Shown: positions 1 through 22,338 of the stretch, in pieces | Numbering within the stretch: the stretch's first letter is position 1 | How the letters are laid out: each line of letters starts with the position of its first letter | The notes under the pieces: generated by a model | The model's database searches: none | Told to the model about the DNA's origin: nothing | The model's input: the letters and a program-made list of their open reading frames with translations, nothing else | DNA from: Leucogyrophana mollusca | Lineage: Eukaryota; Basidiomycota; Agaricomycetes; Boletales | DNA length: 22,338 nucleotides | Reading direction: 5' to 3' | Assembly (NCBI GenBank): GCA_021014945.1 | Contig: MU266687.1 | Coordinates: forward strand, 1-22,338 | Position numbers and translations under genes: made by a program

Positions 1-718
1 CTTTGTGCCGTATGGCTGTCACCTTTCCGGGTATCCCGATGACAGCTTTCCTATCCGCAGTGTGCGGTGTGGTAGTGCGGCATTGGGAAAATTCTTGTGG
101 CACATAGCTTTGACAGCTTTCCGTACACAAGTGGTGGTTTTGCTGCCCGTTGTCTGTTCTTAATTGATCTACAGTAGCCAGAGCCACGTGAATGTATACC
201 TGCCACGAAGGAATGTATTGGCTTGGCATTTTTCCTCCTCCTCAGTTGTGCATGCAGTGCGAAAGGTGCGTGGCAGGCATTCATTTTGGCTTTGTGACAG
301 GCTTTGTAAGTTATGTGGTTTATCTTAATTTATTGTGCATAATGATTAAATAATAATTGGTCAGCTCGTGGCAGTTACCTGCACATCTGCGGGGCATTCT
401 TGGTACGTCCCAGATCCTCTTGGTACGTCCCAGGTCTTGATTTTTAGGTACTTTCACCTCCCGCTCAACTACCTTCACTTTTCAGTCAGCTGCCTTCAAC
501 ATCGCTGACCTACTCGCAGTCACAGGTACGTGCGGGTGGCTCGCGGCGGCTACCTGCTCTTCCACGGAACGTTCTTGGTACATCCGGGGTTTTGATTTTG
601 TAAGTACTTTCACTTCCTGCTCAACTACCTTCACTCCCCAGTCAGCCGCCTTCAACATCGCACATTCTTGGTACGTCCCAGACTTGTCCCAGACCTTGAT
701 TGGGGACCCTCGCTTCTA
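1..718 (+). repeat. Left terminal inverted repeat and subterminal repeat region
   Basis: Bases 1-357 equal the reverse complement of 21982-22338 with no gap and two mismatches (A244 versus G, G261 versus A when read on this strand). From 358 to about 718 the match continues with substitutions and small gaps. The inner part holds four copies of a motif close to TTCTTGGTACGTCCCA (about 397-412, 417-432, 572-587, 665-680), each followed by similar tracts rich in CAACTACCTTCAC and CAGTCAGC. The outer part holds three copies of TGWCASCTTTCC (17-28, 40-51, 111-122). These arrays are likely transposase-binding regions by analogy with CACTA subterminal repeats; that role is inferred. Confidence 0.95.
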
Positions 719-775
719 GATACCACGTCGTACATGTCTGTCTGATTCATGTCCGAATGTCCCACACAATGTAAA

Positions 776-2367
776 TTACATCCACTGCATCCACTCTGAA
801 AGATTTTCAATCCAAGGCAGCACGATGGCAATGCTCAAAACTATAGCGATGGTGATATCTGTGTAAAGGCGTAGATTAGATGCCTTGTGATTTGGTCAGA
901 AGGGATGGTGATGGGGTACAATCTATGTACGAACCTGCTCGCCTTCCGTCGAGGCAGTGCGCAGTCGCGAGAGGACAGAGTAAGTCTCTTGACCCTCCCA
1001 AAGCTCAATATACGGACCATCTTCCTTCGAAGATGAAGCTGTCGCAATGATATATTTCGTTCTTGGTACTCCGGGTGATGCCTCCTGTTTTGAACATAAG
1101 CATCCCACAGACTGGGGGCAAAGAATATACTCACAGCGATCGATAAGACAGTGTGACTGTCCATGTCTGTGTCTGCAAGATGGTCGTATGAGTCTGGATG
1201 TGCTGAAGGGCATACGTACCTGGATGATGGAGGGTCTGCAAAAGCTCCCCAGTCTGTATGTCCCACATGCAGATCTTACCGACTGTACTACCTCCAAGCA
1301 AGACTCTTCTGTTGTGAATGAACTGGACTGGAACGCGAAGGTGCATAGCAACCTTGTGGCTCAGGGACGCCAGCGGCGTGCCGGAAGCGAGATTGTAAAG
1401 GTCAAATCTGGTGGAGATATTGGACACCGCAAGAAGCTGCCGGTCTGCAGCAATGCTCGTACTTCCTCTGATGCTTTGATTAGAGAGCAGTCAGTTAGCT
1501 CAATGGGAAAGGTGCATACATGTCAGTCTTGATGGTGATGAGACGGGCTGCCTTGGCTTGATCAACATCCCAAAATCTGAGGCGTCGTTCGTTAATGATA
1601 TGTTCAACAATAATACTACTTACACGATGCCATGGTGGATGTAAGAAACCATCAATATATTCGGCACGTGCGCGGTAGTAGGCCAGTGCAAGGAGCAAAC
1701 AAGGACTTCGGCGCTTACACTGGCGCCTATCATCGGCGGGTCGTCCACCCTCGACACTGGCGTCCAACGGTCTATGGGATAATCAGATGGGTGCGAGTGA
1801 CGACGCACGGCACATTCACCTTCGTGATCAGTGAATCTCCATATGTGGACTTCGTCGTGGGCACCGGTGGCGACAAGCTCACCACAAACCGCCAAGCATT
1901 CTACCGGATATGTGTGAGCCTCGTACACCGTCGCGCATAACTCTTCCTGGTCTTCCTGGTCATAATTACAAGAGCACTTGCAGGCAGTTGACACGTACCT
2001 GAACCACCTTCACAGAGACGACGGCCCCATTTGTCAAACCCACAAGGAAGCTGACTTCCGAGGGCGGCACCGCCGCCACCGAAACCACACCAGCTTTGCA
2101 CTCGACAACAAAAAGAAGGCGGCTCGTTTTGCTTGACCACACAGTGACCTTGCCGTCCAACCCTCCAGCAGCAAGCAATGTTCCTCGTGGGCTGAAGGTC
2201 AAACAAGTTATGGTGTCGGTATGTTCTCCATACATGCGGCGGCGAGATCTGTAGTGAAGTGGCATTTTTGTCGTGGGGGTATATGGTGGGGGGAGATCAT
2301 GGCCATGATGACCGTGGCGAATTGGCAGTCGTGTCTGCGCTGAGTTCGTGGTTCCACTTCCGTCCAT
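776..2367 (-). CDS. WD40-repeat protein (about seven blades) with hydrophobic C-terminal segment
   Basis: Seven exons keep one frame: 2367-1999, 1955-1624, 1576-1520, 1473-1220, 1172-1135, 1084-931, 858-776. This gives about 428 residues ending in TAA. (A second 3' splice site in intron 1, with exon 2 from 1946, is also in frame.) The chosen start gives MDGSGTT; an internal Met at 2265 begins MPLHYRSRR, just before the first blade. Blade-like units are visible: HTDTITCLTFSP..GKVTVWS, the following VVSVAAVPP stretch, HTYPVECLAV..EVHIWRF, ..GIVFWDVDQ, LLAVSNISTRFDLYNL, VLLGGS..KICMWDIQTG and YIIATASSSKE..IELWEG. That makes about seven, a full beta-propeller, which is a protein-binding scaffold. 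The last exon encodes ITIAIVLSIAIVLPWI about 12 residues before the stop, a possible tail anchor. That exon depends on a GTACAT donor at 930. The gene is divergent from the SUN gene. Its specific partner is unknown. Confidence 0.82.
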
Positions 2368-2808
2368 TGTTCTTAATACTCCGATTGTCATTCCACGTGT
2401 GGATACGCGTATACAAGCGCACCGCGAGTGAGAATCATGCCCAACGCTCGCAATCTCAGCTCTTCCCACTCGCAAGGTAATGTCCAACGCTTTGAGGTGG
2501 TCATCACACGGCTGATCATGTACCCCCTCCGCAAATCTAAAGTACCATCATGATTTGAAGAACACCACATCCCGTAGTCGATCACGACCATGACCAAGGC
2601 AGACGAGTGGACGATCGTCGCGATGGGCTAGAGATCCAACAGGACCGGCAGTTAATGCGCTGAGTAGGTCTATCTCTCTGTAATCGGAGAGTTTCTAGCT
2701 GACAACCGGCCCTACTGGCAAGCTTACCGCCCTTCTGTCCAAGTCAGGTGTGTCCAGTCTGCTGACTGTCATATGTGCTCTGCCCTGATCACAATCGATC
2801 CTATTTGA
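2368..2808. other. Divergent intergenic region between the WD40 and SUN genes
   Basis: This stretch separates two divergently transcribed genes and should hold both promoters. I see no convincing exon. An ATG at 2773 is in frame with the SUN reading frame but meets TGA at 2806-2808. A possible intron ending TTAG at 2824 would allow an upstream first exon that I cannot identify. Confidence 0.4.
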
Positions 2809-4005
2809 ATTGAACGCTACTTAGAGAGTTGGAGCAGCTATGTGTGGGGCTCTCGCCGTCCCCATCAAAATTTACCGGATATAACTGAAGAAGCTGACAT
2901 CGCTCGTTTGTTTGATTCACAAGTTACTCGCCACGCGTCCGATGGCCACACCCTGCAACCACCCAGACCTACTGGGACTCGGTGGCGAATCCTGGACATT
3001 ACCATTACGGCCTCCTCCATTATTGTGCTCTCCGCACTGCTCATGTATTGCTCCTTTCTGGCGAAAATTGTCGTCGCACCATCGCCAGATGCACAGGGAC
3101 GATTCGAAGGCCTCGGCCCCATTTCTTCCCGTGTTGGTTGGTTACGACGGAACACACACTATCCTGATCATCACACCCCATCCCTTGAAGACGCACTCCA
3201 TGTCCATGACATGAACACACGCCTAGCCCGCCTGGAAGACGCTGTTGTCTCGTTGCAGTCACGCAGTGAGCAGATAAGCTTAGAGGCGGCACGACTTGCT
3301 GAAACAAACGCAAAATGCACCGATGTGATGGGAGCTCATGCGAGGCGCCTGTCAACGGTAGAAGCCGCCATATCCAGCGACGAGGCCGCACGTCCGGATT
3401 TCGCTTTGCGCTCTGGAGGGGCTTGAATCATCCCCGAGCTCACGTTGTTGTCTGATCAATCCCCTTCTTGGCCTTTTAACTCGTTGCGTAGCCGAAACAA
3501 CGTAGCCGGCAATTCTCCCGACATTGTTTTGGTTGATGACCTTCATGTTGGGTCTTGTTGGCGTTTCAAGGGCACCTCAGGCCAGCTTGGCATCGTCCTC
3601 CCTGTCCCCGTCATTATCTCGCATATCACAGTCGACCACGTGTCCCGGAAATATACCCCATTGACCAACCTCGCTCTGCGCACCATCATCATCTGGGGCG
3701 TCGTCGACGCTCCAGAGAACCTCGAGAAGCTGGAGAGGCGAACTGCAAACGTGTCAGCCAAACTCACTGAACTCATTGGAGACAGGTCGGGTCCCCCAAT
3801 CACTGGACACTTCCAATTCACCCCCCTAGCTATATTTGACTATGATATTCACGCCAACTCGCATATCCAAACGTTTCCCCTGCTTGACGACATCCTGGGA
3901 CTGAAGATGGACTTCGGTGTAGTGGTTGTAGAGATAGTTGATAACTGGGGCTCGGAAGCTTGGACATGCCTCCATCGTGTCCGTATTCATGGTGAACAGA
4001 AGTAA
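2809..4005 (+). pseudogene. SUN-domain (Sad1/UNC-84) nuclear-envelope protein, interrupted by in-frame TGA
   Basis: SUN proteins sit in the inner nuclear membrane and bind KASH proteins across the perinuclear space. One frame runs from 2809 to the TAA at 4003-4005, broken by TGA at 3424-3426. The part before the stop has a soluble head, a membrane segment (ITASSIIVLSALLMYCSFLA, about 2998-3066) and a heptad-like region (LARLEDAVVSLQSRSEQISL, about 3220-3285). The part after it is a SUN domain: VGSCWRFKGTSGQLGIVL, HVSRKYTP, IQTFPLLDD and a terminal TCLHRVRIHG. The TGA falls in the entry to the SUN domain (ALRSGGA*IIPEL), where Arg (CGA) would fit family sequences as I know them. No intron with acceptable splice sites removes it. 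No ATG opens this frame after the TGA at 2806-2808; codon 2842 is GTG. The gene is therefore probably dead, or makes a protein without the SUN domain. Its 3' end faces the end of the Q-rich gene. Confidence 0.85.
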
Positions 4006-4132: not shown

Positions 4133-7100
4133 TTATAGTTCACTGTCGTCAATGTCAAAATTGTAGTCCTCTTCAACAACTCCCAGTCTTTTCGTCTGCC
4201 AAGGACGCAACGACAAGAGCCAAGTGGGGTTATAGCAATTCCGTGGAAGGTGCTTCGGAGCCAATCCGGGGTTGCTACGTGTACTCTGTATGCGGGTGCG
4301 GGGTGGGTTTCCGGCAGTTGCGCGTTTCCCACCTAGAGGGCATCTCCAATCTTGCCGATATATATGATCGAGGCGGTGTAAAAAGATGGTAAACTCATCG
4401 CTTCGCCACGCCGGACTTATAATCCGATAGTGCTTAGGAGCAGGGGGTCTAGGATTCCCAGCAGGAGTGGGGACATTGACATTCGAATCGTCGGCATCGG
4501 TGTGCATCTGGTTGTCATCACAATCTGTTTCATCGTCACTCATAGCCTGCCGTGTCAGCCGCGTGAATAGGCTCTTGGTGTGGCGTCTGAGGGTCTCTCT
4601 CGATTTGCAAGCCTTGAAGCGGCTGTCATACAACTTGTGCAAAGCATTGTGTTAGTATATATAAGGAAAGAGATCCTAAAATGTTCAACCTACTGTGTCT
4701 TTTCTTGCATTCTGTGCTTGTCGTTCCAGGCGAGCTTTTCTGGCCTTCTTTGATGGCGGAGCGAGGGAGGCTTTATATGTTCTTCGTAAATGGCCCACGC
4801 GGCTGCCCAGGGCAGCACCGACTTTTGCCTCGTCGACAAAATGCGAAGGAATACGGTACTTGTCGAGGAACCCGCTCTTGTGACGGATCAAAAGATACTC
4901 CACGAATACGTCACGCGCTAACTGGTTATAATGTTCTCATTATCAAGATTTTTGATCTTCAACATCTTGAGTAAGACCTTACGAACAGCTTTCTGTAAGA
5001 GGTGTCAGGATGTAACAGTATCATTTCCAAGGCACGCACCAAAAGTACAGGCCATGATGGATCGTCCTTGAATTTTTGGCGGCTACTGCCAGTTCGGTGG
5101 CACTCCTGATCCGAATCGTCCTCAGAGGTGCTTTTGGAGTCGTCCCGGACAACTCTCTGCCTTCGTCGTTGAGTACGGCTGGTGTGTTTGATCGCAGGTG
5201 GCTCGGGTATATCTATCACCTTCGCTTGACCCTCTTGGCGTTTCACCACCTCCAAGACGTCCCCCATGACAGCCAGCGACTTGTCGAACCACTGAGCGAG
5301 GCCGTTCATGCCCTCAAGGACATTAGCAAATCTGAATCCATTGCCGGGAAGCCCATTATCCCCCTCCTGCAACACAGTTCAGGCAGGCTTCTACATGACA
5401 CGCAATGACAATAACTCACTTCCATGACAGCATCGACGTCCCTCAAACGATTATAATCAGAATTTTGAGCTCCGGCTTGAGGATATTCCGTCGGGCCAAA
5501 GTTAGAGACAGATGCGGGGTGCTGCGAGGGTTTTTGCGCTCCGGCCTGCGGATTCTGAGCTCCGGCCTGAGGATATTCTGTCGGCCCAAAGGATGCGGAG
5601 TGCTGCGAGGGTTTTTGAGCTCCGGCTTGGGGATATTCCGTCGGCCCAAAGTTAAAGACAGATGCGGGGTGCTGCGAGGGCATAACATGATGGTTCGACC
5701 GCGGATATTGCATCAAAGTACCAGGAGGCTCCGACTGTAAGTCTCAAAATTAGTTTGGCTCGTGCATAGCTGCTTGCCTGACTCACTATCTGGGGCTGGT
5801 TATGCGGTCTGGTGATGAGGTACTGCAGGGCTGAGCCTTGCAAGGGAGGTATGATCTGGGTGTATGGGGCCTGGTTGTGCAAACCTGGGTGCTGTGCCAC
5901 CGATTGAGATGTATACTGGATTTGAGAAGCTGGGTTCTGTGTCGCCGAGCCATAGGCAGTTGTCTGTGATTGCGTCAGATGAGCTGAAATAGAAGGCTGG
6001 GATGTCATTGCTTCAGATGAGCTGCCACACAACATCTAGGCGTCTGCTCACTGTCTGGAAGCAATCTGATGTGTGCTGGCTCTGCGAACCTGGGTACCAT
6101 GTCATTGAGCCAAATGGAGCTGTCTACTACTACGTCGGACGGGTTACCATTATGGCTCGGCTGTTCACTCACCATCTGAGAGTACAATTGTGATGAATTG
6201 GGGTAGTTTTGCGAGGTAGGAAAGTGTGTCGAAGGGGCGACCTGGGACGTCTAGGATCACTTAGGATGAACTTATCATAAAACATCTAGCTAGACGCCCA
6301 CTCACTGCCCGGGCGTTCGGATGCGAAATGTAGTTTTGCGAGCTAGGAAAATGGGTCGAGTTCAGGTGTGCAGCTGTCGAGCCACTGTGGAGGTCTTGCA
6401 GCTGGTGTTGCAACTGGTGTTGTGCTTGACTGGAATATACTTGTGACACGTGCAATGCAGTAATGGCAGGGGGGGCGACCGGCTACATAGCAAAAGTTAG
6501 AATTCAGACCCGAATCGAACACTGGTGGGACTGACGTAGCCTGTGTAGTCAACAGTTCCCAGGTACTAACAGTGCCATTAGTCCAGAGGTCAGCGGAGTA
6601 GTACTTGTAGAACCGCTTGGTTACTTGCCTTCGACTGCTCGGCACCCGCATCACGAGGACGATCAACAGTGACTGGGGCGCAGATTAAAGGGCCCGGAGC
6701 ATTGCTATGACCAGCAGAAGCGGAAGCAGCTTGAAATGGCGACCTACTGTAAAACTCGGTGCCAGCAACCGCCCGTGAATTGGGCTGACCGATGGGATGT
6801 AAAGCGTGGTCAACCACTATTCCTTGGTTCATCCCTTCGACCAAGGATTCTCCAAGTTGCGTCTGTGATGGCGGCACTGGTAGTGCCCTGCCACGGACTT
6901 GTTGTGAAATGAAACCGGGCATAGAGCCACCTGTGTTGGTGGGGGTTCGTGCGCCAGGGGGCTGCTGATGAAAAGGGGGTAAACACGGCTGTTAGTTAGA
7001 TGCAAGTATAAAAATAAAACACTTACCACAGAAGGCTGAGAAACGTACGTGGTTGACAATGAGCGTCGCTGAGACACTGACGGTGGCGGCATCGAGCCAC

Positions 7101-7882
7101 CTGGTATGCAAATGGTTGCCGATGAGCGTTGCTGGGACTCAGGCAATGGCAGCACCGAGTAACCTGTGTTGATGGGAGTCGGTGCGCCAGGGAGCTGCCG
7201 ATGAAATAAAGAAGTAAATACGGCTGTTGGTTGGATGCAAGTATAAAACACTTACCGCAGAAGGCTGAAGTATGGGCGTGGTCGACAATGGGCGTTGCTG
7301 AGGTTCCGGCGGTGGCAGCATCGAGCCACCTGTATTGATGGGGGTTCGTACACTGAACTGGAACTGGGAGTGTTGAGGTATTGTCGACGGCAGCACGGGT
7401 GATGGGTGCTCGAGTGGCGGGAGTTGCTGTCAAGTGAAAGGATATAAAGTTTCAAATTATGTTCAAAATAGTGAATTATTGTCATGCACGCTGTTCATGA
7501 AAAGCGCTGGTGTCAAATGCGACATCCCTCGGGGCACCGGCTTGATGTATCGATCTTTACTGAAATTATGAATTGACAGCGGCAGGGCGCATGCCTGCGG
7601 GATGGTCAGCATATCGGCGGGCCCCAAAAACAACATACACATGGACTGACAATTTGCTCGTCTTCAGAAGAGGACCCACTCGAATGCTCTTCCGGCTCTG
7701 TAGGATCGCGACCGTCAGCTTATACTCATAGAGACCTAGTTAGATTAAAGCTACAGATTTACAGGGTACATTCTTACCGAAGTCCTTCTGAACTTGCGAC
7801 CAGGTGAACGGACCGGGTTTCGTGTCGGAGGAGGAGGGGTGGTACGTTTTCGAGGGTTGATCTCCCGTTCGTGCAGTGACAT
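4133..7882 (-). CDS. Large Q/P/S-rich protein with conserved C-terminal block, 16 exons, function unknown
   Basis: I do not recognise the family. Exons: 7882-7778, 7695-7651, 7594-7490, 7426-7256, 7194-7027, 6961-6629, 6565-6536, 6482-6306, 6250-6173, 6123-6052, 5996-5787, 5734-5420, 5366-5040, 4992-?, ?-4694, 4633-4133. Every intron I can place is phase 0, and the one at 6628-6566 is GC-AG. The product would be about 975 residues. It starts basic (MSLHEREINPRKRTTPPPP), has an acidic stretch (SSGSSSEDEQ), then long Q/P/S low complexity with repeats, then a basic-acidic region (SRTQRRRQRVVRDD). The C-terminal block includes FVEYLLIRHKSGFLDKYRIP, LYDSRFKACKSRETLRRHTK, YRIISPAWRSDEFTIFLHRL, LPRNCYNPTWL and VVEEDYNFDI. 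Low complexity plus a folded C-terminus suggests a regulatory or DNA-associated protein, but that is only inference. Near 4930 the frame either shifts or uses an alternative intron, so the gene may be damaged. Confidence 0.72.
5466..5680 (-). repeat. Coding tandem repeat in exon 12 of the Q-rich gene
   Basis: Three long copies and one short degenerate copy of a 60-70 bp unit encode GPTEYPQAGAQ plus KPSQH(P/S)AS with small variations. The unit is recognisable on the plus strand by GATATTC(C/T)GTCGG followed by GCTGCGAGGGTTTTTG. Copies differ in length by multiples of three, so the frame is kept. This points to growth by in-frame slippage or unequal exchange. Confidence 0.85.
6915..7350 (-). 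repeat. Duplicated exon-intron cassettes in the Q-rich gene
   Basis: Exon 4 plus its intron (7426-7195), exon 5 plus its intron (7194-6962) and the start of exon 6 share the same sequence. Each has a coding motif like TPINTGGSMLPPPEPQQR. Both following introns start GTAAGTGTTTTAT, contain ACTTGCATC and AACAGCCG, and end in CATC..CAG. Whole exon-intron units were duplicated, and phase 0 at both borders kept the frame. Confidence 0.8.
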
Positions 7883-8527
7883 ATAGGACCTGAGGGAGGA
7901 TGTTTCGTGATCAGTGGCACGGAGGAGACACGGCATATTTATGCTCGGGGCAACAAAGAAATACAACACACAAAGAGGTTTTGTCATCACGCGGTGGCTT
8001 GGGCGGAGATCACGACCACGACGGCCAGCGATCATAAATTGATGTGTCAGCGATGTCCAGAGAGCGTGATCTGGGCCGGGGTGGGGATGCTACGTGCGCA
8101 TGCTTGACGTTCATCATCGTCCATTTAGTCACCAATTGTCACTGCGTGATCTGAACGATGACCGTCAAGCTTCAGAATTCAACAATGCCAAACAAACAAA
8201 CACAAGCCATCGACACAATGCCAAACAAACAAACACAAGCCATCGACACCCGAGTGGCGAGCAACGACATTAATACATGTACTGCAGTTTCTTGTAATTA
8301 GATATCGGTCATTACAAACCACGAAATAGAGACGATGGTGGTACAGATATAAATAAATAGCGCTGCTGGATGGCGCATCCCGAGATTAGCGGTGGAGAGA
8401 AAAGACACACAGGTATTACTGGGTGCAAAAGAGAGCACAGAAAGAATATGGAAATCATCGAGAAATGTATGAACAATCAGCCAAACCGATGAGGACTTAA
8501 GGTGGCTTCATGGACTGACCATTGGTG
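7883..8527. other. Intergenic region upstream of the Q-rich gene
   Basis: This lies between the 5' end of the Q-rich gene and the 3' end of the LRR gene, both on the minus strand. No coding exon is convincing: the open frames here are short and lack family-like sequence. It contains the 33-bp tandem duplication at 8183-8248. It probably holds the Q-rich promoter and the LRR 3' UTR. Confidence 0.5.
8183..8248. repeat. Perfect tandem duplication of 33 bp
   Basis: Two identical 33-bp copies (8183-8215 and 8216-8248) begin CAATGCCAAACAAAC and end CATCGACA. Perfect identity suggests a recent slippage event in non-coding DNA. Confidence 0.95.
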
Positions 8528-9598
8528 TTACAAAAAAGCCGCCTCGTCGGCTGGGACTATTCTTCCTTCAGTCACCCATTCACCCTCCTGAGGTCCACCG
8601 ACGCGGTTCCAATGGATGAGGACTTCATCATCAGAGTATGCAAGATACCAAAGAGTGACATGTCGAAGACTCGGATGACGCCCGTGACCACGAAGCGAGC
8701 AAGCTGCATGACCAGCCCAACGCTGGATGAGTTTCTTCTCTTCGTTCACGTCCCCTGGTGTCTGAACAAGCGTAGCAGTAGTGAGTAGCTGCAGGTGAGC
8801 GAGGGACGGGAGGGAACGAAGGTCCCTCACCCACCGACTGAAGTCGTCGTGAGTGGCTCTCGGGTGTGGGTGTGCATCCCCTTCCTGGGTGTAATTGTAT
8901 TAACAAGGTGACATGGAATCTGGAGAGCCACACAAACTCGCCTGCAGCGGCCTCTCGACGAGCTTGAGTGCGTATAGTTTGGGTAGGCTTTGGGCCACGC
9001 GTCGTAGGACATCACGTTCGCCGGGGTGGAACTCCAAGTCGAGGGACGAAATGGTGGGGCAGGATGCGAGAGAATCGAAGAAAGGTGAAAGCGAAACCTT
9101 TAAATCGCAGTTGCCTGCGAGCCCACGGCGAACGACAGGTTTAGCGGTGGCCCTGAAGATACGGTTCCTGCTAATAATGGGAGATATGCAAGGGTGTGGG
9201 CGTGTGACCGTCCTTAACGTTGGCAAGCTGACGTCCAGCGAACTACATCGGTCGCCAACGTGACATGGACCGATCTCCAGCGCATCGAGCTCCGGAAGTT
9301 TGGTCAGAAAATCGACGATAGAAGTGTGGGGTACATTGGTGTTAAACACCTGAAGGTTTGGAAACAAGAGCCCAGATAGAAACCGGAGTGCACGAGTCGC
9401 GGACACGCCTTCCACATCCAATGTCAATATGACTAGGTTGGTGCATTGAAGGAGAGAACTCCGAAGCTTGTGGAAGGGAGGGTTGGGGCCGTCGAAGCCG
9501 ATTCTGACACCAAGAGCGGCCGGAGCCACCTCTTTGTTGTAGGTGATGATGGCGAGGAAACAGTCGACCTCTAGCTCACGCACGAACGTCTGGGAGAT
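8528..9598 (-). CDS. Leucine-rich-repeat protein of the agaricomycete F-box type, 5' end unresolved
   Basis: Two exons are clear: 9598-8942 and 8884-8528, joined through a 57-nt GC-AG intron (CAG|GCGAGT). The only GT donor nearby would break the frame. The 338 or so residues carry irregular LRR units: CTNLVILTLDVEGV, FPNLQVFNTNV, LPELDALEIGPC, CPTISSLDLEFH, LPKLYALKLVERP, LPSLAHLQLL and HPSLRHVTLWYL. The tail ends VPADEAAFL and TAA. Such LRR tails usually follow an F-box, where the protein recruits substrates to SCF ubiquitin ligases. Upstream, an intron 9728-9599 would link to an exon ending RTRSGVKQ. No F-box is recognisable there, and a 19-bp minisatellite interrupts the region, so the 5' part may be lost or rebuilt. 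The F-box link rests on the style of the LRRs only. Confidence 0.65.
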
Positions 9599-10393: not shown

Positions 10394-10401
10394 AAGTCTG
10401 T

Positions 10402-13400
10402 TCACGCAGAGACGTCAATATGATCAGAGACCGCGCAGTACTGATCAGTCATGAAACTTACCCTGTCTAGAGATTTCACCACAATGCACTCCCTCTCAAT
10501 CCCGGGTGGTACGTACACGAATGAGCTGAAATGTGATACGACGTCGGATACCTTCAAGACATGCGTTTGGGACTTCAGGTTGTTGTAGTATAACTGAACC
10601 CCAAGGTGCTCGATGGCACGATAAGGGTCGTACGCCTGGTCGGAGACGGACAAGCTCTGAAACTCCTTAACCGCAAGAAACGGTTCAACGACGGAGTGAC
10701 CACCCTCCAACCGGCGGTGAAGAAATATCTGAACTATCTGCCCAGCAACAGCAGGTCTTGGCTGTCCAGCGACTTCAGAGGGGTGGAACAGCACAAACAA
10801 ATTGCCGACCGAGCTGCTTTGAACCGATAACGAGACACTGTCCTTCTTGACGCTCCGAACAAAGCGCACCTGGTAGTCCAGAGGCTTGGATTTGGCGTTG
10901 CTGGTATCCCACCTTGAGAAGTGGGAGGCCGGTGTTGTAATACTTTTGTTGATCCGGTCCAGGAGCGCATCGTAGATACAGTCGGATAGATCTTCCATGT
11001 GTCTTTCATCTAAAGTTGACCCTTCGATTTCGGAAACCCCTTCGGTGCTCGAGACAGACAAGATACTGTCAACAATCGACTCGTGGTTCACGAACGTTTT
11101 CTGAAACGACTCGCAAAGCCTTCGAAACTCTGCAGTGTCTGGAAATTTGATACTACTGGCGAGTGCGCGTAAGTTTGCAGCCATGCAAAAGTATCGTGCA
11201 AACGTCATCTCCATCTCATCTGTAATCATTTCAGCACCACAGCCTGTAGACAAGTATCTGGAGGGACATTTGACCTACCGACTTTGTTGTTGGTTGTGAC
11301 ATCCCGCATGATTCCGTTGTAGCGTTCGAAAGGGAAAGCCCACCATGCATGGACTGGACCGAAGAGCAGGAGGCAATCGTCGAGATGAAGTGATAGATGG
11401 TGATTCGGCACCAGATCGTGATCCGAGAATAACTCGCGAAGGGCTTGGAGATATCGAGTCATGTGGCGCGTGTAGATATCGATTCTGGTGCGCGAAGTTG
11501 ACCTGCGAGTAGCTGTTTCCACCGCGATCACGAGGTCACAAAAATTGCGCAGGAGATTCTTCTCCCTCTCCAAAACCCCACTACCTCCCCAGATACGAAC
11601 AAGGGTGATGGTGAGTGATACAGTGAATACACTGCGCCATTGGTCCGCCTTCAGCTTCCTGTGACTTGGACTGCCGAAGTTGTGGGGAGGTCGTGCCATC
11701 CAGGACGGAAATGTCGTGCGCTTGAGATCAGCCTGTATTTGATCGAGGAGCTCTTTACCCAGTACGGTGAATTTGGAGAAATCAACGACAGCCTCAGAAC
11801 CGCTGAGGACGAAGTCCTTCATGGCCACGTCCATCACAGCTGGGATGCGTATTGGAGTGCCCGGATTGGCACGCCGCTAAGGTAAAACCATCAATCTTCG
11901 AGTTGCACAATTGGTGGATGCGGGAACTTGGAAAAGTATGACCTACCCAGTCTAGCATCGCCTGCATATAAACGTTCTTCGTGAATGATCCAGTCACCGG
12001 GATTTCGTTGAGCTGAGCGATCGCGGATAAATACCCTCTCCGTAACCGTTTCAGTCCATTTTCCGACAGTTTCTCTAAGGCTTTTTGTCCCCTTTCCAGC
12101 CACATGGCCTGGTCCTCGGGAGTATGAGCCTTAACCCTCTCATTCGTCTTCTCGCTGACTTTGATGTTTAGGCCCCACACATTGCAGCAGTGATGTTGAA
12201 ACTCGCCCAGAAAGAGATTGTGCATGGAGTCAACGACTGTGAATTTGGTGACATCCCAGTACGTCAAGCGGAGCAGCTCGGACCACCTCAATCCACGGCG
12301 TTCGAACACCTTTTCGCGGTTGGCCTGATTACGAGCATTTTTCCAGCGTTCAGCATCTATCTTATGCTCTTCGAAGGTCCGTCGTGGCCAGGATGCTTTA
12401 ACCAAATTTGAGATCTCCTTCCTCGGCAAACGGCAAAAGGAGCAAAACTGCTCCTTGGCGGGACCAGCAAATCCAGCTGTTTTGCGGGTGGCAGGTAAAT
12501 CGCAGACTAATGGCCCCAGGGCACACCGCACGAGCCTCCCGAATGGCCTAGTCCATGTCCGTTTGAGTATGACGCCATGTTTCCACAGTTGCACCAAATC
12601 GTCGACAAGAGGCCGTAAGATGTGATTGATGTGATGCAGAGAGGGCTCCTTTGGACCGGGAATAACACCAACAAGATAAACGTTCTCGAGCTTATATTGA
12701 AGGTGCGTGGGGAGATTGAGACACACCATATAGATGGCCCCGGTCGAGTGCGATTTCCCAGCCTGCTTGTTTCCGTAAGGATTGAACCAATCCACAAAAA
12801 GGCTGAACACCAGGTGGGCCGCGCCAGGCGTCGAAATCAAAAAAGGCTTCCCGTCTGGAGCCTTGAGCTCAGCCAGCCCGACAGCATCTCATATATCCTT
12901 TCAACTATCGTCTTCAGAGGGCGTTGGAGTCCAGGCTCCATCCATCAACCCCTCGAGGCCGGGCCTGGAAAACAAACGCGCTAGCCAGGAGGCCATAGGC
13001 TGATAGCCGTAGACTTTGATGGGCCTTTGACCCGAAAGAGGTTTTCCCCTCTCTTCCCTCCGAAGTAGCTGTGTTCCGCAGAGGTCATCGGCAGGTGTTT
13101 CGCGGAACGTACATTCCTTGGGATACGGCATTGGGTAGCTATGGTCAGGTTTGTAGGTGGAAAAACACTTAGGGCAACACGCATATTCGACTAGATGGGG
13201 CTCCAAGTCGAATTTGGACAGAGTGCTTCGAAGATCCTTAGGTAAGTTCTTGAGTAGCTGGTACTCTTCGTTGGTGATGTTCGATGGCGTGGATTTATTT
13301 CCTTTGCTGAACCAGAACGTGGCAGCTATTATTGCCCGCAAGGCGGCAAGCATGAAGCCACTGTTTGCTCGGGATACTCCGGCAAGAACGTGTAGGACGA

Positions 13401-14429
13401 CCACGAGGAAACATGCAGCCAGTAAGATTGGGTTCGTTGGCAGTCGAGGGTGATTGAATAGATGATCTAATGACCACGAATCAGTTGGATGTGGTGGATG
13501 AAAGACGTGGGGCCAACCTGTAGACAACAATGCCGGCCCAGCCATATACTTTAGGCTCTCGGTAGCCATGGCTTCGGCTCTGAAAGCCAACCACTGCTGC
13601 TCCTTCATCTCGTTCAAGCGCTCGAGCTCCTGAGACACCCTCTTGTTCATCGCGGAACACCTTCCTTCTACATCTTGACTGCCTTCGCTTTTGAGATCGT
13701 CGAGTATTCTTGCAGTTTCTGTAAGCCACCCCAGGTATATGACGTAGTCACCATTCGCAGGATTAGAATCAGATGCAAACGATGTGACCCCTCGCAATGC
13801 ATCCGCTTCGTTGAAAGAGAGGCGATGGGCACTGAGTTTGAAGGAACGACAACGGTGGTCCAGGTCAGAATTCAAAGATGCGATCACTCGCAAGGCCCGG
13901 TCTACTGCTGCACCCTGAGTGAGATTTGAGTGTATCGGCAAAAGATTAATGAAAATTGTGGTGCATGCGCACCTGCAAGCCACCTCCAGAGGAGACATTG
14001 GTATCTATAGATATTGCCGCAGACAAACTTAAGGACTGGATCCTCCGGCGCAAAATGAGATCAATCCGAGATGTCTATAAATCAAAGAAAAAAGAAACTC
14101 ACGTCACAATCTCCGGGGGGATGTCCGCCCCGATTATCGCGATTGGCTATTTCGCGGTCGCGTTGCCGCACAGGTAACTCAGTGTCGCACTTGGGCTTGG
14201 GGGATAGCGTGGCCGCAAAGATGGAATGTCGGGCCTTGGTTCTGTCTCCCTCTGCGCGCAGCTGCTTCTCTTCCCATTCGGAATGTTTTTGCTGATGTCG
14301 ATGCCACTGATTTGGAGGTAGCAATTTCCTGCATACCTCAGTACCATCGTCGTTGACGAATACACCCTTTCTACATTTATAGCATTGACAGTGCTTCAGT
14401 TGGGGGCCGCCGTCGGAGGAGTCAGACAT
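10402..14429 (-). pseudogene. Plavaka/Tnp2-like (CACTA-related) DDE transposase with two in-frame TGA codons
   Basis: This is the likely mobility enzyme, cutting the element at its TIRs. Exons: 14429-14103, 14035-13973, 13914-11947, 11876-11279, 11219-10402, about 1,257 codons. The N-terminus has a Cys cluster (HCQCYKCRKG...VCRK...W..H). Near residue 375 is CCPKCFSTYKPDHSYPMPYP...CTF...DLCGTQL, a putative zinc-binding cluster. The Tnp2 core includes FVDWFNPYGNKQAGKS (about 504), YLVGVIPGPKEPSLH, FCSFCRLPRKEI, TVVDSMHNLFLG (about 689), NHHLSLHLDD and FPFERYNGIM (about 968). The acidic residues in DWF, VVDSMH and FERYNG are my candidates for the catalytic triad. TGA codons at 12903-12901 and 12891-12889 lie in exon 3 between MDGAW and LKAPDGKPF, which stay in one frame. 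No usable intron removes them. A donor after SLDR (GTAAGT) could change the last residues. The 5' side has TATA-like AT-rich DNA near 14525. Confidence 0.93.
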
Positions 14430-14602: not shown

Positions 14603-16419
14603 TTAGTCGAGCTCGTCGAGCTCGGCTTGGGCGCTAGCCTTCCGTGCATGCCAGAGACCCTCGGAGCATTCGGTTAGCTCATGTTTTCCTTTCCCCAACA
14701 TCACAGGCAGTCTGAGCGACATGAGCTTCTGGATCTGATCCAATTCCTCGGCCGATCCATATCCTTTGACTGATTCTAAGGCAGGAAAGAGTAGCCGGAC
14801 GTTGGGTAAGTCATTGTCATGAGTTGTTCTCGCAATGGCGACTTGATCATGAACCTGTTGTGTATTTTCGAACAGAAGGGCGAGTAGGCTGGCTGGTGCA
14901 GTATCGAAGAACTCCAGCTGCCGCACCGCTGTGTAAGCGCCTGCCAATTCCTCCCATATGACTGGTGGGACTTCGACGGACGGCTCGACAGTGATTTGGA
15001 GGTGCTCGACCCCCGAAGTAGGGAGCGCACAGCAAAGTCTAGATAGAAACGGCATGAGGGAGGCCATCATGGCGCTTCCCCAAAAGAGCGAGAGTCTGAG
15101 ACAAGGGCTAGACATCCTGTTGTCACTCCCGAGACCAAGCAAAAAAGCGAGTGTTCCATCCAGACGATGTGAACTCGGGATATCGTGATCCCGCTGAAAG
15201 CTGTCATCAGAATATCTCCCGTTGCAGGGCCTCTAACGGGAGGAAATGTGGCCCCACGGTCAACGCCTCCGTCGAAAGTAAAATCGCGAATCGCATTTGG
15301 GGGAGCGACGAGGCCGGAGAGGAAATTTACGCAGTCGACGTAATCGCCTTGCAATTCGAGATGTTTCAAGTGGTTGAACGCCAAAACGTGCTTCTCAGAA
15401 AAGGGAGCAGGCGCAATGTTGGAGACAACGTGTATAAGAGCAAGATTTCGCAATAAAGGCAAACGGGCCAATACAGCAGATAGCTGGCTCGAAGTAGGCT
15501 TGGCGGTGGGGGAGACACAAGTAATGCTGAGTTCGGTTAGGGTTCGGAAGGCGAAGGCGCTCCAGTCCACATGGAAACCTTCTAATTTGACGCGACGAAG
15601 ACAAGGCGCATCCATCGTCAACAATCCAGTGGGCAATTCGATAACGTCTGATGTGTCTTCATCGTGGATATGTCCGTCGTTGATCAATTGCAATGACTCC
15701 AGGTGAGGTGCGCACCAACTGAATAGTGGCAAGACCTCAAGCAACGTAGCTTGATCAGCAAGCAGGGTGAGACAACGAATTCTGGAAAAGGAGCGGATGG
15801 CTACGGCGATGTTACGAGTCACTTGTGGGAGTTGATCGCCGCAGGAACGAAGGTTTGCCTGCACATCAAGCGGAGTAGCCGCAGACCGACTAAGCTTCTC
15901 TCTCAGCCAGCGTTTGGTATCTCTCATCGGATCTATAGCGAGACTCCAGAAGATCGAATCTCCGAGGGCAACAGAACGCCAGCGGCAGCAAACACGCGTG
16001 ACGATCCTGGATGTATCATCACAACGGTCACACAGAAGCGGGTCGCAACAACCATCAACAGCGAGTCGGAAGATGTGCGACAGCACTTCAGTGGGGAGAG
16101 AGTACACAGGGGCGAATGTGTTCCGGCGGGCATTAAGGTATCGCAGCGAGGTGTATAAAGCCAGTCAACGAGATCTAGACACCTCGCAATCTTCATGATC
16201 TTGATCAAGCTGACGTATAGCCAACTTCACGTTCTGTACACGCTGATCGATCACGAGGCATGCTGCAAGCTTGACAGGAAGCGAATAGTCGATCGGTGAA
16301 TGAAAGATCGTCCGCCACAGATTCAAGAATAATACTAGAGGCCATACATCTAGAGTCAGCTCATGTAAGATCGACGTCAGGTTGACTTGATCACCTGTGA
16401 AACCGGGTAACGAGAACAT
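14603..16419 (-). pseudogene. F-box/LRR protein, interrupted by one in-frame TGA
   Basis: F-box proteins bind Skp1 and bring substrates to the SCF ubiquitin ligase. The frame runs 16419-15238, then a 44-nt intron (GTTAGA...CTGAT...TTTCAG, 15237-15194), then 15193-14603. Upstream is a helix (DQRVQNVKLAIRQLDQDHED), then YLNARRNTFAPVYSLPTEVL followed by SHIFRLAVDG and CCRWRSVAL, the usual layout of agaricomycete F-box proteins. LRR-like units follow: SRIRCLTLLADQA, APHLESLQLINDG, APCLRRVKLEGF, LPLLRNLALIHV and FNHLKHLELQGD. TGA at 16167-16165 splits the helix from the F-box (SRSR*LALYTSL). There is no acceptor AG before the F-box that could splice it out, and no Met between the stop and the F-box. 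CGA (Arg) is the simplest ancestor. The first exon start (ATG 16419) is my choice; the leading 45 residues are not typical. The gene lies upstream of the transposase on the same strand. Confidence 0.87.
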
Positions 16420-16859
16420 CGATGCCACAGTACTACTGTAATGCGGTTTTCTGGAGCAGAGCCGGGTGGCTACGCAGCAAGAATGGTGAAGCTATAGCGA
16501 GTTATATCTGCGAGAAATTATATTATAATCTGTGAGAGATGCGCCAAAAATTCAAACCTTTTATATCAACAATATTGCGCATGGTTGTGGTTGTGGTGAT
16601 CATGTGTGGTTGTGGACGCTGTTTGTTTGATCGGTGTGGACGTTGGACGTGAAATCTGTTCACGGTTTCGCCATGGGTTAATTAATCGTGGTGGGTCTGT
16701 GGCTGAGCATTAACGGCCATGTTTGCCCGCTGATTGCCGCGATAGCTAAGGACTTGCCACGGCTTCCTATCTTCGTCTCGATTTTGGCTTTACACCAGTA
16801 AGTCCGTGCTCATGCTCACAATCATCGACCGCGCGTTGTTCATTCAATATTATTTGACC
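16420..16859. other. Divergent intergenic region
   Basis: This stretch separates the F-box/LRR gene (-) from the unknown gene at 16860 (+). It holds AT-rich stretches (about 16512-16530, and TTTTATATCAAC near 16559) and a GT-rich tract with repeated GGTTGTGG (about 16580-16620). Promoters for both genes are expected here. I see no exon. Confidence 0.4.
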
Positions 16860-17792
16860 ATGGCCAGTGGCTACGCCTCCACCTCAAATTCGACCCCGGG
16901 CTTTTCAAGTGAAGACACGTTTAAGTGGCAACATCAACGAGCCGACACGTTTGAAAGTCCCGAATCCCAGCTGGGTTGCAGGCCAGGAGACTGTGCAACC
17001 CACTATCCTGCGATCTTTTCCTCCAGGGAGCCAGGCAGAGCCCCTCCAAGTCAGGTTTTGTGGACCTGTGTGCGTAGTATTTGACCTTCTCTCACTCAGT
17101 CGCAGTCTCACATGTACGTCCCTACTTATATACAGCCCATTAGTTCTCAAGAATCACAGACTCCTGACAATGCGAAGCCAAAGATGCGCTCCCCTACAGC
17201 CGAGCGTGACGTGAAACCAATGTCGGTGACCACGTTTATATTGTTCATTCCGCATTTCAGCCCACATCTTTCAAAAGTGTTGCTGAGCCTTCCCTGGAAG
17301 CAAACGCGACTCCTTCAGCTGATCAAGGCGCGTCGGCCCCACTACCTGACGATATAAAGGTAAGGTACCTTTTTTTGGCGTACACCTAACTAATGAATGC
17401 AGGTATCTCCTCGCAAAACCCACAAGTATTGTGGCGGTGAAGGTGGTTATGCTTGGTTTGATTCCCAATCTCCCGCGCGTCTTCAATCCCCTCCACCATT
17501 CGAACAAGAAGCAGGAGTCACAGAAGGAGATGTTTACGTCCATTGGGTTGGGACAGACTGCACACAATGTCAAATTTGGGTGTGGTCGCGTTCGGATGGT
17601 GGTGGTTCCGAGGTGGATCGGCTGTACTGGAAAGCTGTTGCTAATGGGCATCGTCCGAGGGGGACAGGGAGGTATCTCGTGGTCACGGACAAAGGTCAGC
17701 CATCCTTAGTTCAGGAGGCCACATGGAAAAAACAATATTCGCGCAAAGAGACACCTATCATGCCACCCTCATCATACACGTCATCCAAATGA
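16860..17792 (+). CDS. Unknown protein, about 267 residues, four exons
   Basis: I do not recognise it. Exons 16860-17054, 17106-17225, 17261-17359 and 17403-17792 join in phase 0 throughout and end in TGA. The second intron is only 35 nt, so that junction is the weakest part of the model. The first 140 residues are S/T/P/Q-rich and look disordered (MASGYASTSNSTPGFSSED; ISSQESQTPDNAKPKMRSP). The last 130 are denser, with a core around GDVYVHWVGTDCTQCQIWVW, a later LYWKAVANGHRPRGTGRYLV, and several Trp and Cys. This could be a small beta-rich domain. There is no signal peptide or membrane segment. It is followed on the same strand by the coiled-coil gene. Confidence 0.6.
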
Positions 17793-18071: not shown

Positions 18072-19299
18072 ATGCGTATTTGCCAAACGACCGAATTTGG
18101 AATCCTCCTCGACGCGCTCAAGGAAACATTACACTGTACCGACGGATGCGCCACCAACGACAACGAGGTTTACACTCTTCCCGGTAAATCTGTAGTTGAC
18201 ATCATGCAGAGGTTTGCGTCCACGATATTGGCCAAAAGCCCCTATGCCATGACGCTCGTATCGATGCTGGCCAAGGATCATAAAGCTAACAAAGAGCTCG
18301 TGTCTGATCTCGGGGCTTTGATGATGGATCCTTGCCGCGAGGTCCAGCTTACGTGCAGACGGCTGCTTTACATCATCTTGGACGTGTACGACTCACCGTT
18401 CAAGATGGATTTGGATGCAGTATCAATCATGTCAAGTCGGGCTATGCCTGGCCCGCCGAGGGTTGTTGAGCCGGGCGTTCCGGCCGCCGTCTCAGCTGGC
18501 CACGAAAGTGAGTCATCCTCGCTGATCGCTTATAACGGGTGGTTGGATGACCGTGAGGTGCAGATTGTATGGTGGCAATTCAGACGGGTTTACGCATGAT
18601 CCGCCAGGAGATGAACCCGCGCTTAGACGCTTGGGATTCATGGATGCAACAAAAGGAGGATGAGTTCGCCAAGTGGGAGGAAGAACGGAAGTTGCAGCGT
18701 CAGAAGCTGAAAGGACTCACTACTCAGGCAGTTCAGTTTACATAATTCCACCGTCCAACGCTCTCTAACAAGTGAATCCAGAATGTGAATTGCAATACGA
18801 TCAGTCACTTGGAACAGTTAGTCGCCTCCCTCCAGCGCTCATTCGAAGATCTTGGACAAGAGCTCCGGCGGAGTGCACAGACAAGGATTGGTGGGTAGCG
18901 AATCCATAATTTAGCGATCTAAGCCTCACTCACCCCGTCACAGACGGCCTGAAGCGATCACAACAACGTGTACTCATAGAAAGCCATGCCACCAATCAAG
19001 CCCAAATGCGGCTGAAATCCCGACTGTCCAAGGTCGAGCGGGGGTTATCAGTCGTGCAAGGAAAGCACAAAGCGCAGGTGTCAGACCTTTCCAACATCGT
19101 AGAGTCGACTCAACTGATGCAGAGGGACCTTACACTGCTGCGAACTGACCACACACGCTTCAGGAGGGACCTTGAGGATTATCTAGAGGCCCGTAACTCA
19201 ACTCCGATGTCACCATCTGACGAACAGCCTTCTACTCGCGGGGGCTCAAATGGCGGGATAGTCGTAAATAATCTCGCTGATGAGCTCTGGCCAGGATAG
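18072..19299 (+). CDS. Coiled-coil protein of unknown function, four exons
   Basis: Exons 18072-18507, 18564-18730, 18782-18890 and 18944-19299 join in frame (phases 1, 0, 1) and give about 355 residues ending in TAG. The N-terminal third is helical and globular (FGILLDALKETLHCTDG, VVDIMQRFASTILAKSP, EVQLTCRRLLYIILDVYD). The remainder is charged and heptad-like (MQQKEDEFAKWEEERKLQRQ, HLEQLVASLQRSFEDLGQEL, MRLKSRLSKVERGLSVVQGK, LRTDHTRFRRDLEDYLEARN). A long coiled coil suggests a structural or tethering role. I cannot name the family. The end near 19299 may not be the true 3' end, because 130 bases later a membrane-spanning frame opens on the same strand. The start could also lie further upstream. 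Confidence 0.7.
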
Positions 19300-19505
19300 C
19301 GACGGAGAGGTGAGGTCTCCCACGTTTATGGAATCCGAGAGATAAATTGATGTCGAACCGCCCAGACTTCTGTTATATCCTCCAACGAAGTACGTTCCTG
19401 GGCAATCTACTGTGAACTCGTCATTTCTTGGACTCACAACCTTTTCCCACACAGTTTGCTCCATCCACGCTCGTCTCCACGATTGCTTCTGTTCTTATCG
19501 AGCCC

Positions 19506-19739
19506 ATGGCGTTCATTATGTCCCCGGTGATCCCACACTTGCCTGTGGCGGCGTCTAGTCAGTCTATTCCCTCACTCAAGGCCGCAAAGCAACTGTACTG
19601 TCGCCGTCTGCGTGTTTCTGCTGTCATAATTGTTCTTTTCGTGGCCTTAGGGACACTCTTCTTCATCCCTGGAGTCCCATCATCACAACTCGCCCAAGAC
19701 GAACGACCAATCTGGAGGCAGCTGTATGCAGGTGCATGA
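19506..19739 (+). CDS. Small protein with one C-terminal transmembrane segment, or last exon of the coiled-coil gene
   Basis: From ATG 19506 the frame gives 77 residues. A 3' splice site CACACAG at about 19455 would extend it upstream (FAPSTLVSTIASVLIEP). After a basic stretch (KAAKQLYCRRLR) comes VSAVIIVLFVALGTLFFIPG, a clear membrane segment, then about 21 residues to TGA. With the coiled-coil gene just upstream on the same strand, a spliced product would be coiled coil, membrane anchor and short tail. I could not find an unambiguous donor: candidates lie at about 19263 and at GAG|GTGAGG near 19310. So the two are listed separately. Confidence 0.45.
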   Translation: MAFIMSPVIPHLPVAASSQSIPSLKAAKQLYCRRLRVSAVIIVLFVALGTLFFIPGVPSSQLAQDERPIWRQLYAGA

Positions 19740-19801
19740 CGCGAGTTCAAGCGAGATACTTAGATAATATTTAAATAGCGTATGCCTAGAGGACAATGAT
19801 G

Positions 19802-19930: not shown

Positions 19931-19932
19931 AC

Positions 19933-21195
19933 CTAGTTGGATGACATCCCATCATCCTCGCCGAAGCGGACACGCTTGGAGGGCCTCCCTGCCTCATCTT
20001 GTACAGGGGAGGATCCGGGTTCACTCGTACTAACCGCAACAGTGGCACACCCGTTCCGGCAGCGAGGCCGGACGAGGTAGTTGCCATGCCTATCAAGAGC
20101 ACCGCCTCGAAAAATTGCCGGAGCCATCGCAAGGCCGAATGCATTGTAACCAACGTCCTGACGAACGGGTGGCGTAATGGGTCCAGACGAGGCGTCCGAG
20201 TCAACGGGGGACGAAGATGGGGTTGCGGGTAAGGTGTTCGAGTGAGCAGGAGACAAAGTTGGGGATCCGAAGGGAGTGAACATAGGATCAACGACTGCTG
20301 GAACAGAGATGAAGGTGACTTCATCTACCGCCATGGCCGCGGCTGGAGCATCGCCCTCAGCGACAGTGGAAGAGGGTAGCGCTGAGTCCGTGGCAGTGAT
20401 GACAGTGGGCGCAGTACTAGGGCCGACAGCAGAGACGCCCGCCGCGCCATCGGATTCAGGGACGGGAGACCGCGGCACTGCGCTCGTAGTTGCATTGGTG
20501 CTGACAACAGACGAAGTCTGACCAGTAGTCGCACCGGGCACAACGATAGGTTGGGCTGTTTTGTTCGCCGGCTTGAAGATATTTGTCGATAATTTCAGGG
20601 GCCCTGGCCATTCAAATGGCACCGTAAACCCTGTCCAAGCTTCACGAAGGTTGGATGAAGTGAACCCCACACCACATCTGACGTCATAATTGCCCTTGTC
20701 TGAAAGTCGCAGGAAGGAGTAGATAGTACCCTCATCGTAAAAGTGAAGGTTGACTCGCTCGCCCGTGCGTTGTCGCTCCAGGCGCACAACGGCTTCCTAG
20801 AAGATGGCCCAACTTAGATATCAAAAGTAGATTACATAAAATTGAATCTTACATCTGAGGTGTAAACGAGGTCGATTGCGACAGGGTCGCTTGGGTCTTT
20901 GAGGCGGTGGACAATGGAGTGAATGCCATCCTTGACCAAGAGCCAGGCTAATCTGCGAGTTAGTCAACGCAGAGAAGAGGAAGAGGAAAACTTACGAGAG
21001 TTGACTTTGTCACTTCCGATAACCAAAATAGACGCCGCGGTAGGATCGTCCATGCGTTTGTCTGTAGTACCCCAAGGATGGGACACACCCGCACGGGTGG
21101 TCGCGTACAAGATTTCGGCACTGTACATAAAGATAAGCCTGAAGTCTGAGATGGAGACGTTGAGAATACCTATTAAGGCGACTAAAATTGACCAT
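19933..21195 (-). CDS. Unknown 369-residue protein with globular N-terminus and disordered C-terminus
   Basis: I do not recognise the family. Exons 21195-21170, 21120-20996, 20947-20853 and 20796-19933 join in frame and end in TAA. The first 145 or so residues look folded: AEILYATTRAGVSHPWGTTD, ASILVIGSDKVNS, WLLVKDGIHSIVHRLKDPSD, NLHFYDEGTIYSFLRLSDKG, and EAWTGFTVPFEWPG. The rest is S/T/P/A-rich and disordered, ending in a basic-acidic tail (RPSKRVRFGEDDG) that could act in nuclear localisation. A TATA box lies about 90 bp upstream of the chosen ATG, which supports this start. The third exon uses the second of two nearby AG acceptors, because the first would create a stop. This is the gene closest to the right TIR. 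Confidence 0.72.
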
Positions 21196-21284: not shown

Positions 21285-21292
21285 TTTTTATA
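21285..21292 (-). promoter_or_regulatory. TATA box of the 369-residue gene
   Basis: On the minus strand the sequence reads CCCTATAAAAACCC, with TATAAAAA at 21292-21285. It lies about 90 bases upstream of the ATG at 21195, which fits a short 5' UTR. Confidence 0.55.
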
Positions 21293-21360
21293 GGGCTGGA
21301 GGGTGGCGTGAGGAGTGGGCGTCCTTTGTGACGCAAGTGAAGGGGGCGAGTGGCATTTGA

Positions 21361-21640
21361 GACAAAGGAGTTGATTATGAGGTCGACGTGGTCCGGGGTG
21401 GCGCCGGCGGTGGGTTGAGGGAGTGAGGTTCGGGATGGCGAGTGGTGGGACGATGTGTCTGGGGACTATGTGTCGGGGGTCGGGGTAGGCGAGGTGGCAT
21501 GACGGCGACTCCGGTGACTCGGGACGATGGGGTCGGGGGTGACATTTGGGACGGCGAGGTGGTGTGACGGTGACGCTAGAGCTAATGGACGTTGCGGATG
21601 TCGAAGGCAGCTGACTGAAAGGTGAAGGTAGTTGAGCAGG
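21361..21640. other. G-rich spacer inside the right TIR
   Basis: This strand is rich in G runs, with loosely repeated GGTCGGGGGT and GGCGAGGTGG(C/T)(A/G)TGACGG motifs. The left end has no counterpart. I see no gene. Confidence 0.5.
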
Positions 21641-22338
21641 AAGCGAAGGTCCCTAAAAATCAAAATCTGGGACGTACCAAGAATGTGCGATGTTGAAGGC
21701 GGCTGACTAGGTAGTTGAGCGTTGAGCGGGAAGTGAAAGTACTTTAAAAATGGAGATCTGGGACGTACCAAGAATGTCCGTGGAAGTGCGGGTAGCTGCC
21801 ATAGCCACCCGCACGTACCTGTGACTGTGAGTAGGTCAGCAATGCTGAAGGCAGCTGACTGAAAAGTGAAGGTATCTGAGCGGGAAGTGAAGGTAGTTGA
21901 GCGGGAGGTGAAAGTACCTAAAAATCAAGATCTGGGACGTACCAAGAATGCCCCACAAATGTGCAGGTAACTGCCACAAGCATTATTATTTAATCATTAT
22001 GCACAATAAATTAAGATAAACCACATAACTTACAAAGCCTGTCACAAAGCCAAAATGAATGCCTGCCACGCACCTTTTGCACTGCATGCACAACCGAGGA
22101 GGAGGAAAAATGCCAAGCCAATACATTCCTTCGTGGCAGGTATACATTCACGTGGCTCTGGCTACTGTAGATCAATTAAGAACAGACAACGGGCAGCAAA
22201 ACCACCACTTGTGTACGGAAAGCTGTCAAAGCTATGTGCCACAAGAATTTTCCCAATGCCGCACTACCACACCGCACACTGCGGATAGGAAAGCTGTCAT
22301 CGGGATACCCGGAAAGGTGACAGCCATACGGCACAAAG
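21641..22338 (-). repeat. Right terminal inverted repeat and subterminal repeat region
   Basis: This is the inverted copy of 1-718. Bases 21982-22338 match the left end with two mismatches (22095 and 22078); 21641-21981 match with substitutions and gaps. Three inverted copies of the TTCTTGGTACGTCCCA motif lie at about 21669-21684, 21760-21776 and 21933-21949, against four on the left. The three outer TGWCASCTTTCC motifs are mirrored at 22311-22322, 22288-22299 and 22217-22228. Confidence 0.95.

Follow-up and report, generated by a model that had tools for sequence, protein, structure and literature searches.

We analyzed a 22,338-bp stretch of DNA (hereafter the window), which is the complete contig C361 of the Leucogyrophana mollusca assembly (545 contigs, 32.3 Mb) and has no flanking sequence. 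The window is a real large transposon with terminal inverted repeats (TIRs), partly decayed and probably cut off at both ends by the assembly, which combines a backbone of genes recurring in related elements with genes specific to itself. Very probably it is the bulk of an EnSpm/CACTA transposon of at least 22.3 kb, one of the 20-32-kb elements of L. mollusca that have a common multi-gene backbone and move by cut-and-paste. A cut-and-paste CACTA element typically holds one or two genes. The first-pass annotation of this contig had proposed a large basidiomycete TIR element holding about ten genes, among them one for a DDE-type transposase, and this proposal was borne out by a sibling element, E381, in which TIRs, a CACTA terminus and a 3-bp target-site duplication (TSD) were found.

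The sibling E381 is built around contig C381 (20,233 bp), which begins and ends with its own inverted repeats. Two further contigs, C350 and C433, each open with the 95-mer of the C381 ends, which gives a 95-bp overlap with C381, and have exactly 1,312 bp in common before they diverge. Read inward, this common piece (R) opens with CACTACAGGCATTCTCGG. The joined element, consisting of the reverse complement of R, C381 and R, is 22,667 bp long, has 1,312-bp TIRs and reads CACTACAGG...CCTGTAGTG. According to the main text of Kojima 2025 (PMC12730594), fungal EnSpm elements have CAC..GTG ends and a 3-bp TSD, while PlavakaA has TGT..ACA and PlavakaB has CATCA..TGATG. The E381 termini, CACTA..TAGTG, have the CAC..GTG form and neither of the Plavaka forms, and ATG stands on each side in direct orientation as a 3-bp TSD. 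With these ends and this duplication, E381 fits EnSpm/CACTA and not Plavaka. In one flank an open frame of the Alg6_Alg8 family (114.7 bits) lies 1.2-2.0 kb away from the junction, and the other flank has a KDZ transposase with a CxC2 cluster about 2.4-3.9 kb from the junction (C433, 3.7-5.2 kb from its start; 190.3 bits). The presence of this gene and this transposon in the flanks indicates that E381 sits in a chromosome. With both host junctions present, E381 is proof of an element inserted by transposition. The outer 400 bp of its TIR occurs in the assembly only at C350 and C433.

Two other contigs, C285 (32,260 bp) and C384 (19,979 bp), also have their own inverted repeats at both ends. 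The four elements (window, C285, C384 and E381) were compared all against all, with self-hits, the rows of the window transposase (query start 10400-14600) and rows whose query was none of the four left out. The transposase, a WD40 protein gene (WD40-1) and gene A were present in all four. Gene D was also found in all four by short matches, with E381 linked only via C285 and C384. A second WD40 gene (WD40-2), gene E and a RING-type gene were shared by three elements, the window being the one without them, and gene G by two. The RING domain passed its cut-off of 21 in both proteins tested, from C384 and E381 (28.7 and 27.2 bits). No backbone gene had a match in any of five control stretches of the same genome (two flanks, C360, C362 and C1) or in four further 6-kb stretches.

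By protein identity of the transposase, gene A and WD40-1, C384 and E381 form the closest pair and the window is the outlier. Identities within this pair were 52% for the transposase (36-43% for the other comparisons), 47% for A (31-33%) and 54% for WD40-1 (23-31%). Such concordant values fit a gene set inherited in common, as opposed to genes captured one by one. A tree of the transposases groups the window with a protein of Serpula lacrymans (support 100/99) and puts C285, C384 and E381 in another clade (100/100).

Since four genes occur in all four elements, part of what looked like cargo belongs to a conserved backbone and differs from the free load of a Starship; to that extent the arbitrary load supposed by the first-pass annotation is not supported. 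We regard it as unlikely that the window is a Starship-like element collecting arbitrary cargo, in which a DDE transposase stands in for the tyrosine recombinase. The SUN, LRR-like, F-box-like and unassigned genes found only in the window agree with this explanation, as do about 10 kb of C285 which are absent from the others and include a 503-amino acid protein without a Pfam match. However, the four common genes diverge together, so much of the load is an inherited backbone. Also, no copies with the same ends and a different load were found, the TIRs of the window and of E381 each being unique in the assembly. The 19 window exons scanned against Pfam gave no match to a tyrosine-recombinase captain.

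The gene models of the window were made by a purpose-written small gene finder trained on 28.6 kb of open frames, and their exon borders are provisional. They comprise one transposase and about nine other genes, eight of those multi-exon. The first-pass count of about nine spliced genes was close to this, but its description of them as unrelated does not apply to WD40-1, A and D, which recur in the siblings together with the transposase. The features of the window are as follows.

1..357, + strand: left TIR, up to the contig end; same as the right TIR except at 244 and 261; unique in the assembly.
358..685, + strand: left subterminal region, a diverged inverted repeat of repeated modules; unique in the assembly (query 400-800).
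776..2367, - strand: backbone gene WD40-1 (PF00400, 37.3 bits), modelled in 7 exons and with a hydrophobic segment close to the C-terminus; relatives in C285, C384, C381 and C215.
2590..4005, + strand: SUN-domain gene with a hydrophobic segment, a coil-like stretch and Sad1_UNC (PF07738, 68.5 bits); in-frame stop at 3424-3426.
4133..8035, - strand: backbone gene A, 16-exon model with a long low-complexity N-terminal part and a conserved C-terminal part; relatives in C285, C384, C350, C433 and C215.
8528..9865, - strand: tentative LRR-like gene (gene model; best Pfam match 18.9 bits, below the cut-off of 27).
10392..14429, - strand: tnp2-type DDE transposase gene (PF02992) with two in-frame stops, at 12901-12903 and 12889-12891.
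14603..16164, - strand: tentative F-box-like gene (open reading frames; model 14603-15927; PF12937, 19.3 bits, below the cut-off of 24.3).
16812..17792, + strand: one or two small gene models, kind unassigned; no Pfam family for 17397-17792.
18072..19740, + strand: gene model, kind unassigned, with a hydrophobic segment near the C-terminus; no Pfam family in the exons tested.
19933..21145, - strand: backbone gene D, limited to the part that has matches in relatives (the model itself ran into the TIR); short matches to C285 and weaker ones to C384 (5e-4); no Pfam family.
21597..21981, - strand: right subterminal region, with the modules of the left side in inverted form (repeat comparison).
21982..22338, - strand: right TIR, up to the contig end (repeat comparison).

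The transposase matches PF02992 (Transposase_21) with 56.1 bits against a cut-off of 28.6, and its exons contain the CMCT-clade motifs C(2)C and H(3-4)H, read by eye as CSFC and HLSLH. Its DUF4218 score is below the cut-off (22.3 bits; cut-off 27), and the Plavaka family PF18759 reaches 18.1 bits, under its cut-off of 26.3. Of the Plavaka/Tnp2-like label given at first pass, the tnp2 half stands; the Plavaka half is not supported, given this score and the EnSpm/CACTA-like termini and TSD of E381. The best relative of the window transposase is an S. lacrymans protein (53%), and relatives within the assembly lie on C381, C285, C384 and C509. The transposases of C285, C384 and C381 are open in their gene models, and the frame of the window carries two in-frame stops. 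The gene finder spliced round all three window stops (two in the transposase, one in the SUN gene) using weak sites, and the part of the transposase skipped in this way is conserved in relatives. The window copy looks damaged in both genes, unless unusual splicing removes the stops. Because the transposase frame is interrupted, the element probably cannot move on its own protein.

Gene A had no Pfam family, and a large protein search with it gave 2,432 candidates, none at E 0.001. The SUN-domain gene had a single other match in the genome, on C219 (42%); this gene and the F-box-like gene are extras of the window, absent from the three siblings. A hydrophobic segment near the C-terminus was flagged in all four WD40-1 models and all three WD40-2 models by a non-specific scan that flagged transposases too. 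Short tandem repeats of the window include 19-bp units at 9913-10007, two copies of a 33-bp unit at 8182-8247 and 35-38-bp units at 19802-19928. The window had no match in a phage collection or in Rfam (0 matches), and two scans of viral contigs gave nothing of use.

The inverted repeats at 1-357 and 21982-22338 are identical over bases 1-243, have mismatches at 244 and 261, and are identical again to 357. Beyond them the diverged inverted repeat of modules extends inward for about 330 bp, to 685 and 21663. The whole inverted repeat, modules included, has 90.6% identity over 689 columns. The modules, at 393-685 and 21597-21947, are a subterminal feature of the EnSpm/CACTA kind. Matching TIRs had been reported to close the window, and the 357-bp repeats with their two mismatches are indeed there, but the contig merely stops at them, probably inside the TIRs. 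The contig begins CTTTGTG at both ends, and these ends, read as CTTTG..CAAAG, fit no EnSpm, PlavakaA or PlavakaB terminus. This points to a contig that breaks off within the TIR, and the true ends probably lie outside it. The first bases were also tried as a PlavakaA end and rejected, as TGT at position 4 would require an inverted and not a direct flank.

The two ends of C381, like those of C384, have exactly 95 bp in common, and at the ends of C285 there are 95 identical bases within 140 at 95.7%. Exact 95-bp overlaps point to a de Bruijn assembler run at K = 96, the value used by ALLPATHS-LG. They also suggest that the sibling contigs stop inside TIRs that go on outside. The 95-base assembler overlap was rejected as the end of all four elements: it holds for C381, C384 and C285, and the window has 243 identical bases. 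No contig of the assembly overlaps the ends of the window or of C384. Four tandem copies of TTAGGG occur nowhere in the assembly, from which telomeres are missing or in which they have another repeat.

Several observations weigh against the EnSpm/CACTA assignment of the window. It starts with CTTTGTG and not with CAC, and, as the contig stops at the TIRs, it has no flank, TSD or empty site. Its arms are identical over 243 bp, compared with 95 bp in the three siblings, which the 95-bp rule does not explain. The first-pass annotation had proposed to look for further copies by means of the TIR, and the TIR proved to be single-copy, with no second site among the 545 contigs. It had also proposed to look for an empty site; that of E381 had 0 matches in the assembly with up to three mismatches. 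The true ends of C285 and C384 were not found, and the perfect identity of the E381 TIRs could come partly from assembly collapse. Gene order varies among the elements. The matches of gene D span 37-93 amino acids, and the window matches directly only C285 and, at 5e-4, C384.

The missing TSD, the TIR without a CAC terminus and the host-like appearance of the SUN and F-box-like genes would also suit ordinary chromosomal DNA that happens to be framed by a small repeat in two inverted copies, with the transposase belonging to an unrelated small element. We consider this improbable: the TIR region is unique in the assembly, so there is no dispersed small repeat there, and the same genes lie between differing inverted repeats in three further contigs, one of which, as E381, has CACTA ends and a TSD. 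Most improbable of all is an extrachromosomal nature of the contigs, as linear plasmids or viruses that carry terminal repeats. Four contigs do end at inverted repeats, and the window and C384 have no flank. But E381 is joined to host DNA on both sides, which refutes this explanation for E381. Introns are present, the 95-bp ends resemble assembler overlaps, and the window exons tested against Pfam gave no match to a DNA polymerase or other replication gene.

Fragments of further relatives were seen elsewhere in the assembly; C381 was examined in full, C215 over 3.3 kb and at its two ends, and C463 over 2,000 of its 14,088 bases. A relative of the RING-type gene lies at C463:12936-13387, about 0.6 kb beyond the C285 end, so the C285 element continues into C463. 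The 2,000 bases examined there contained one CACTA, at 13589, which is unconvincing as the terminus of C285. At C215:4764-8048 gene A and WD40-1 are adjacent, and the gene A exons are 69-82% identical to the C285 copy. No PF02992 match was found on this 49.5-kb contig, which perhaps holds an element without a transposase. On C509, at about 124-5591, a tnp2 transposase lies between weak inverted repeats and forms a single-gene small relative of about 5.5 kb, with no matches to WD40, A or D. In E381 the 3′ exons of gene A fall within the TIR (C350:1-1312, C433:1-1312), and the left end thus holds a second, truncated copy. A long array of diverged direct repeats with a register of about 135 bp was observed at C350:19228-21413.

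In elements of this EnSpm/CACTA group, the transposase would bind the long TIRs and the subterminal repeat modules and would cut at CAC..GTG ends, with insertion making a 3-bp duplication; the terminus and the duplication are seen in E381, and the window presumably has the same kind of end. Besides the tnp2 transposase, the backbone has the WD40 protein, A and D, and in three of four elements also the second WD40, the RING-type protein and gene E. Gene A may be a TNPA-like helper, judging solely from its position, which is within the TIR or next to it. The SUN and F-box-like genes of the window would be additional load.

The distribution of WD40-1 was traced by a profile search, of whose 283 matches we considered the best 120. 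Among these were three L. mollusca proteins (P0125, P0121 and P0122) and, as other top relatives, proteins of Hygrophoropsis aurantiaca, Pisolithus, Suillus, Rhizopogon, Paxillus, Artomyces, Amanita, Trametes and Coprinopsis; the C285 copy was not among them, and the lower ones were generic WD40 proteins. The H. aurantiaca relatives lie on contigs of 23,530, 8,627 and 9,057 bp. A more speculative reading, which we put forward tentatively, is that these elements are a class of their own among giant transposons of mushrooms. Their backbone, with membrane-anchored WD40 proteins, a RING ligase and genes A, D and E, would have come together before the two transposase lineages split and been passed on as a unit across Agaricomycetes. 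It might serve as a self-help kit against host silencing or as a tie to the nuclear envelope, aiding survival and spread between nuclei. The SUN-domain gene added in the window would suit the envelope idea.

Fungal EnSpm/CACTA elements of the CMCT clade, as presented in the main text of PMC12730594, resemble the L. mollusca elements in the tnp2/EnSpm-related transposase with its C(2)C and H(3-4)H motifs and in the CAC..GTG termini and 3-bp TSD seen in E381, but differ from these 20-32-kb elements with their multi-gene backbone. The carried genes mentioned in that main text are TET/JBP dioxygenases, with 0 occurrences of WD40 or RING. Plavaka, as far as described there, has a related transposase and is common in mushrooms, but the sub-threshold PF18759 score of the window and the E381 termini are unlike it. 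The nearest case found in the literature is that of enlarged En/Spm elements in the red alga Chondrus crispus (16-20 kb, 4-5 open reading frames; cited in PMC6431247), which are likewise oversized CACTA elements with several frames. They belong to another kingdom; the L. mollusca elements reach 32 kb and have about ten gene models. Starships, the giant elements with tyrosine recombinases, have also been reported in the basidiomycete Tremella fuciformis (PMC13066641) and are alike in size and gene load, but the L. mollusca elements have a DDE transposase, long TIRs and a 3-bp TSD. In the literature searched, whose coverage leaves out most subscription papers, no description of multi-gene CACTA elements in mushrooms was found.

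In short-read assemblies such elements are broken right at their TIRs or within them and so escape notice. With WD40 relatives in many Boletales and a few other mushrooms, a possible joint travel of backbone and TIRs is directly testable in existing long-read genomes. A group of 20-32-kb CACTA elements in a wood-rot mushroom with a conserved backbone of four to seven genes, transposase included, would add a second, DDE-driven route to giant fungal elements beside Starships.

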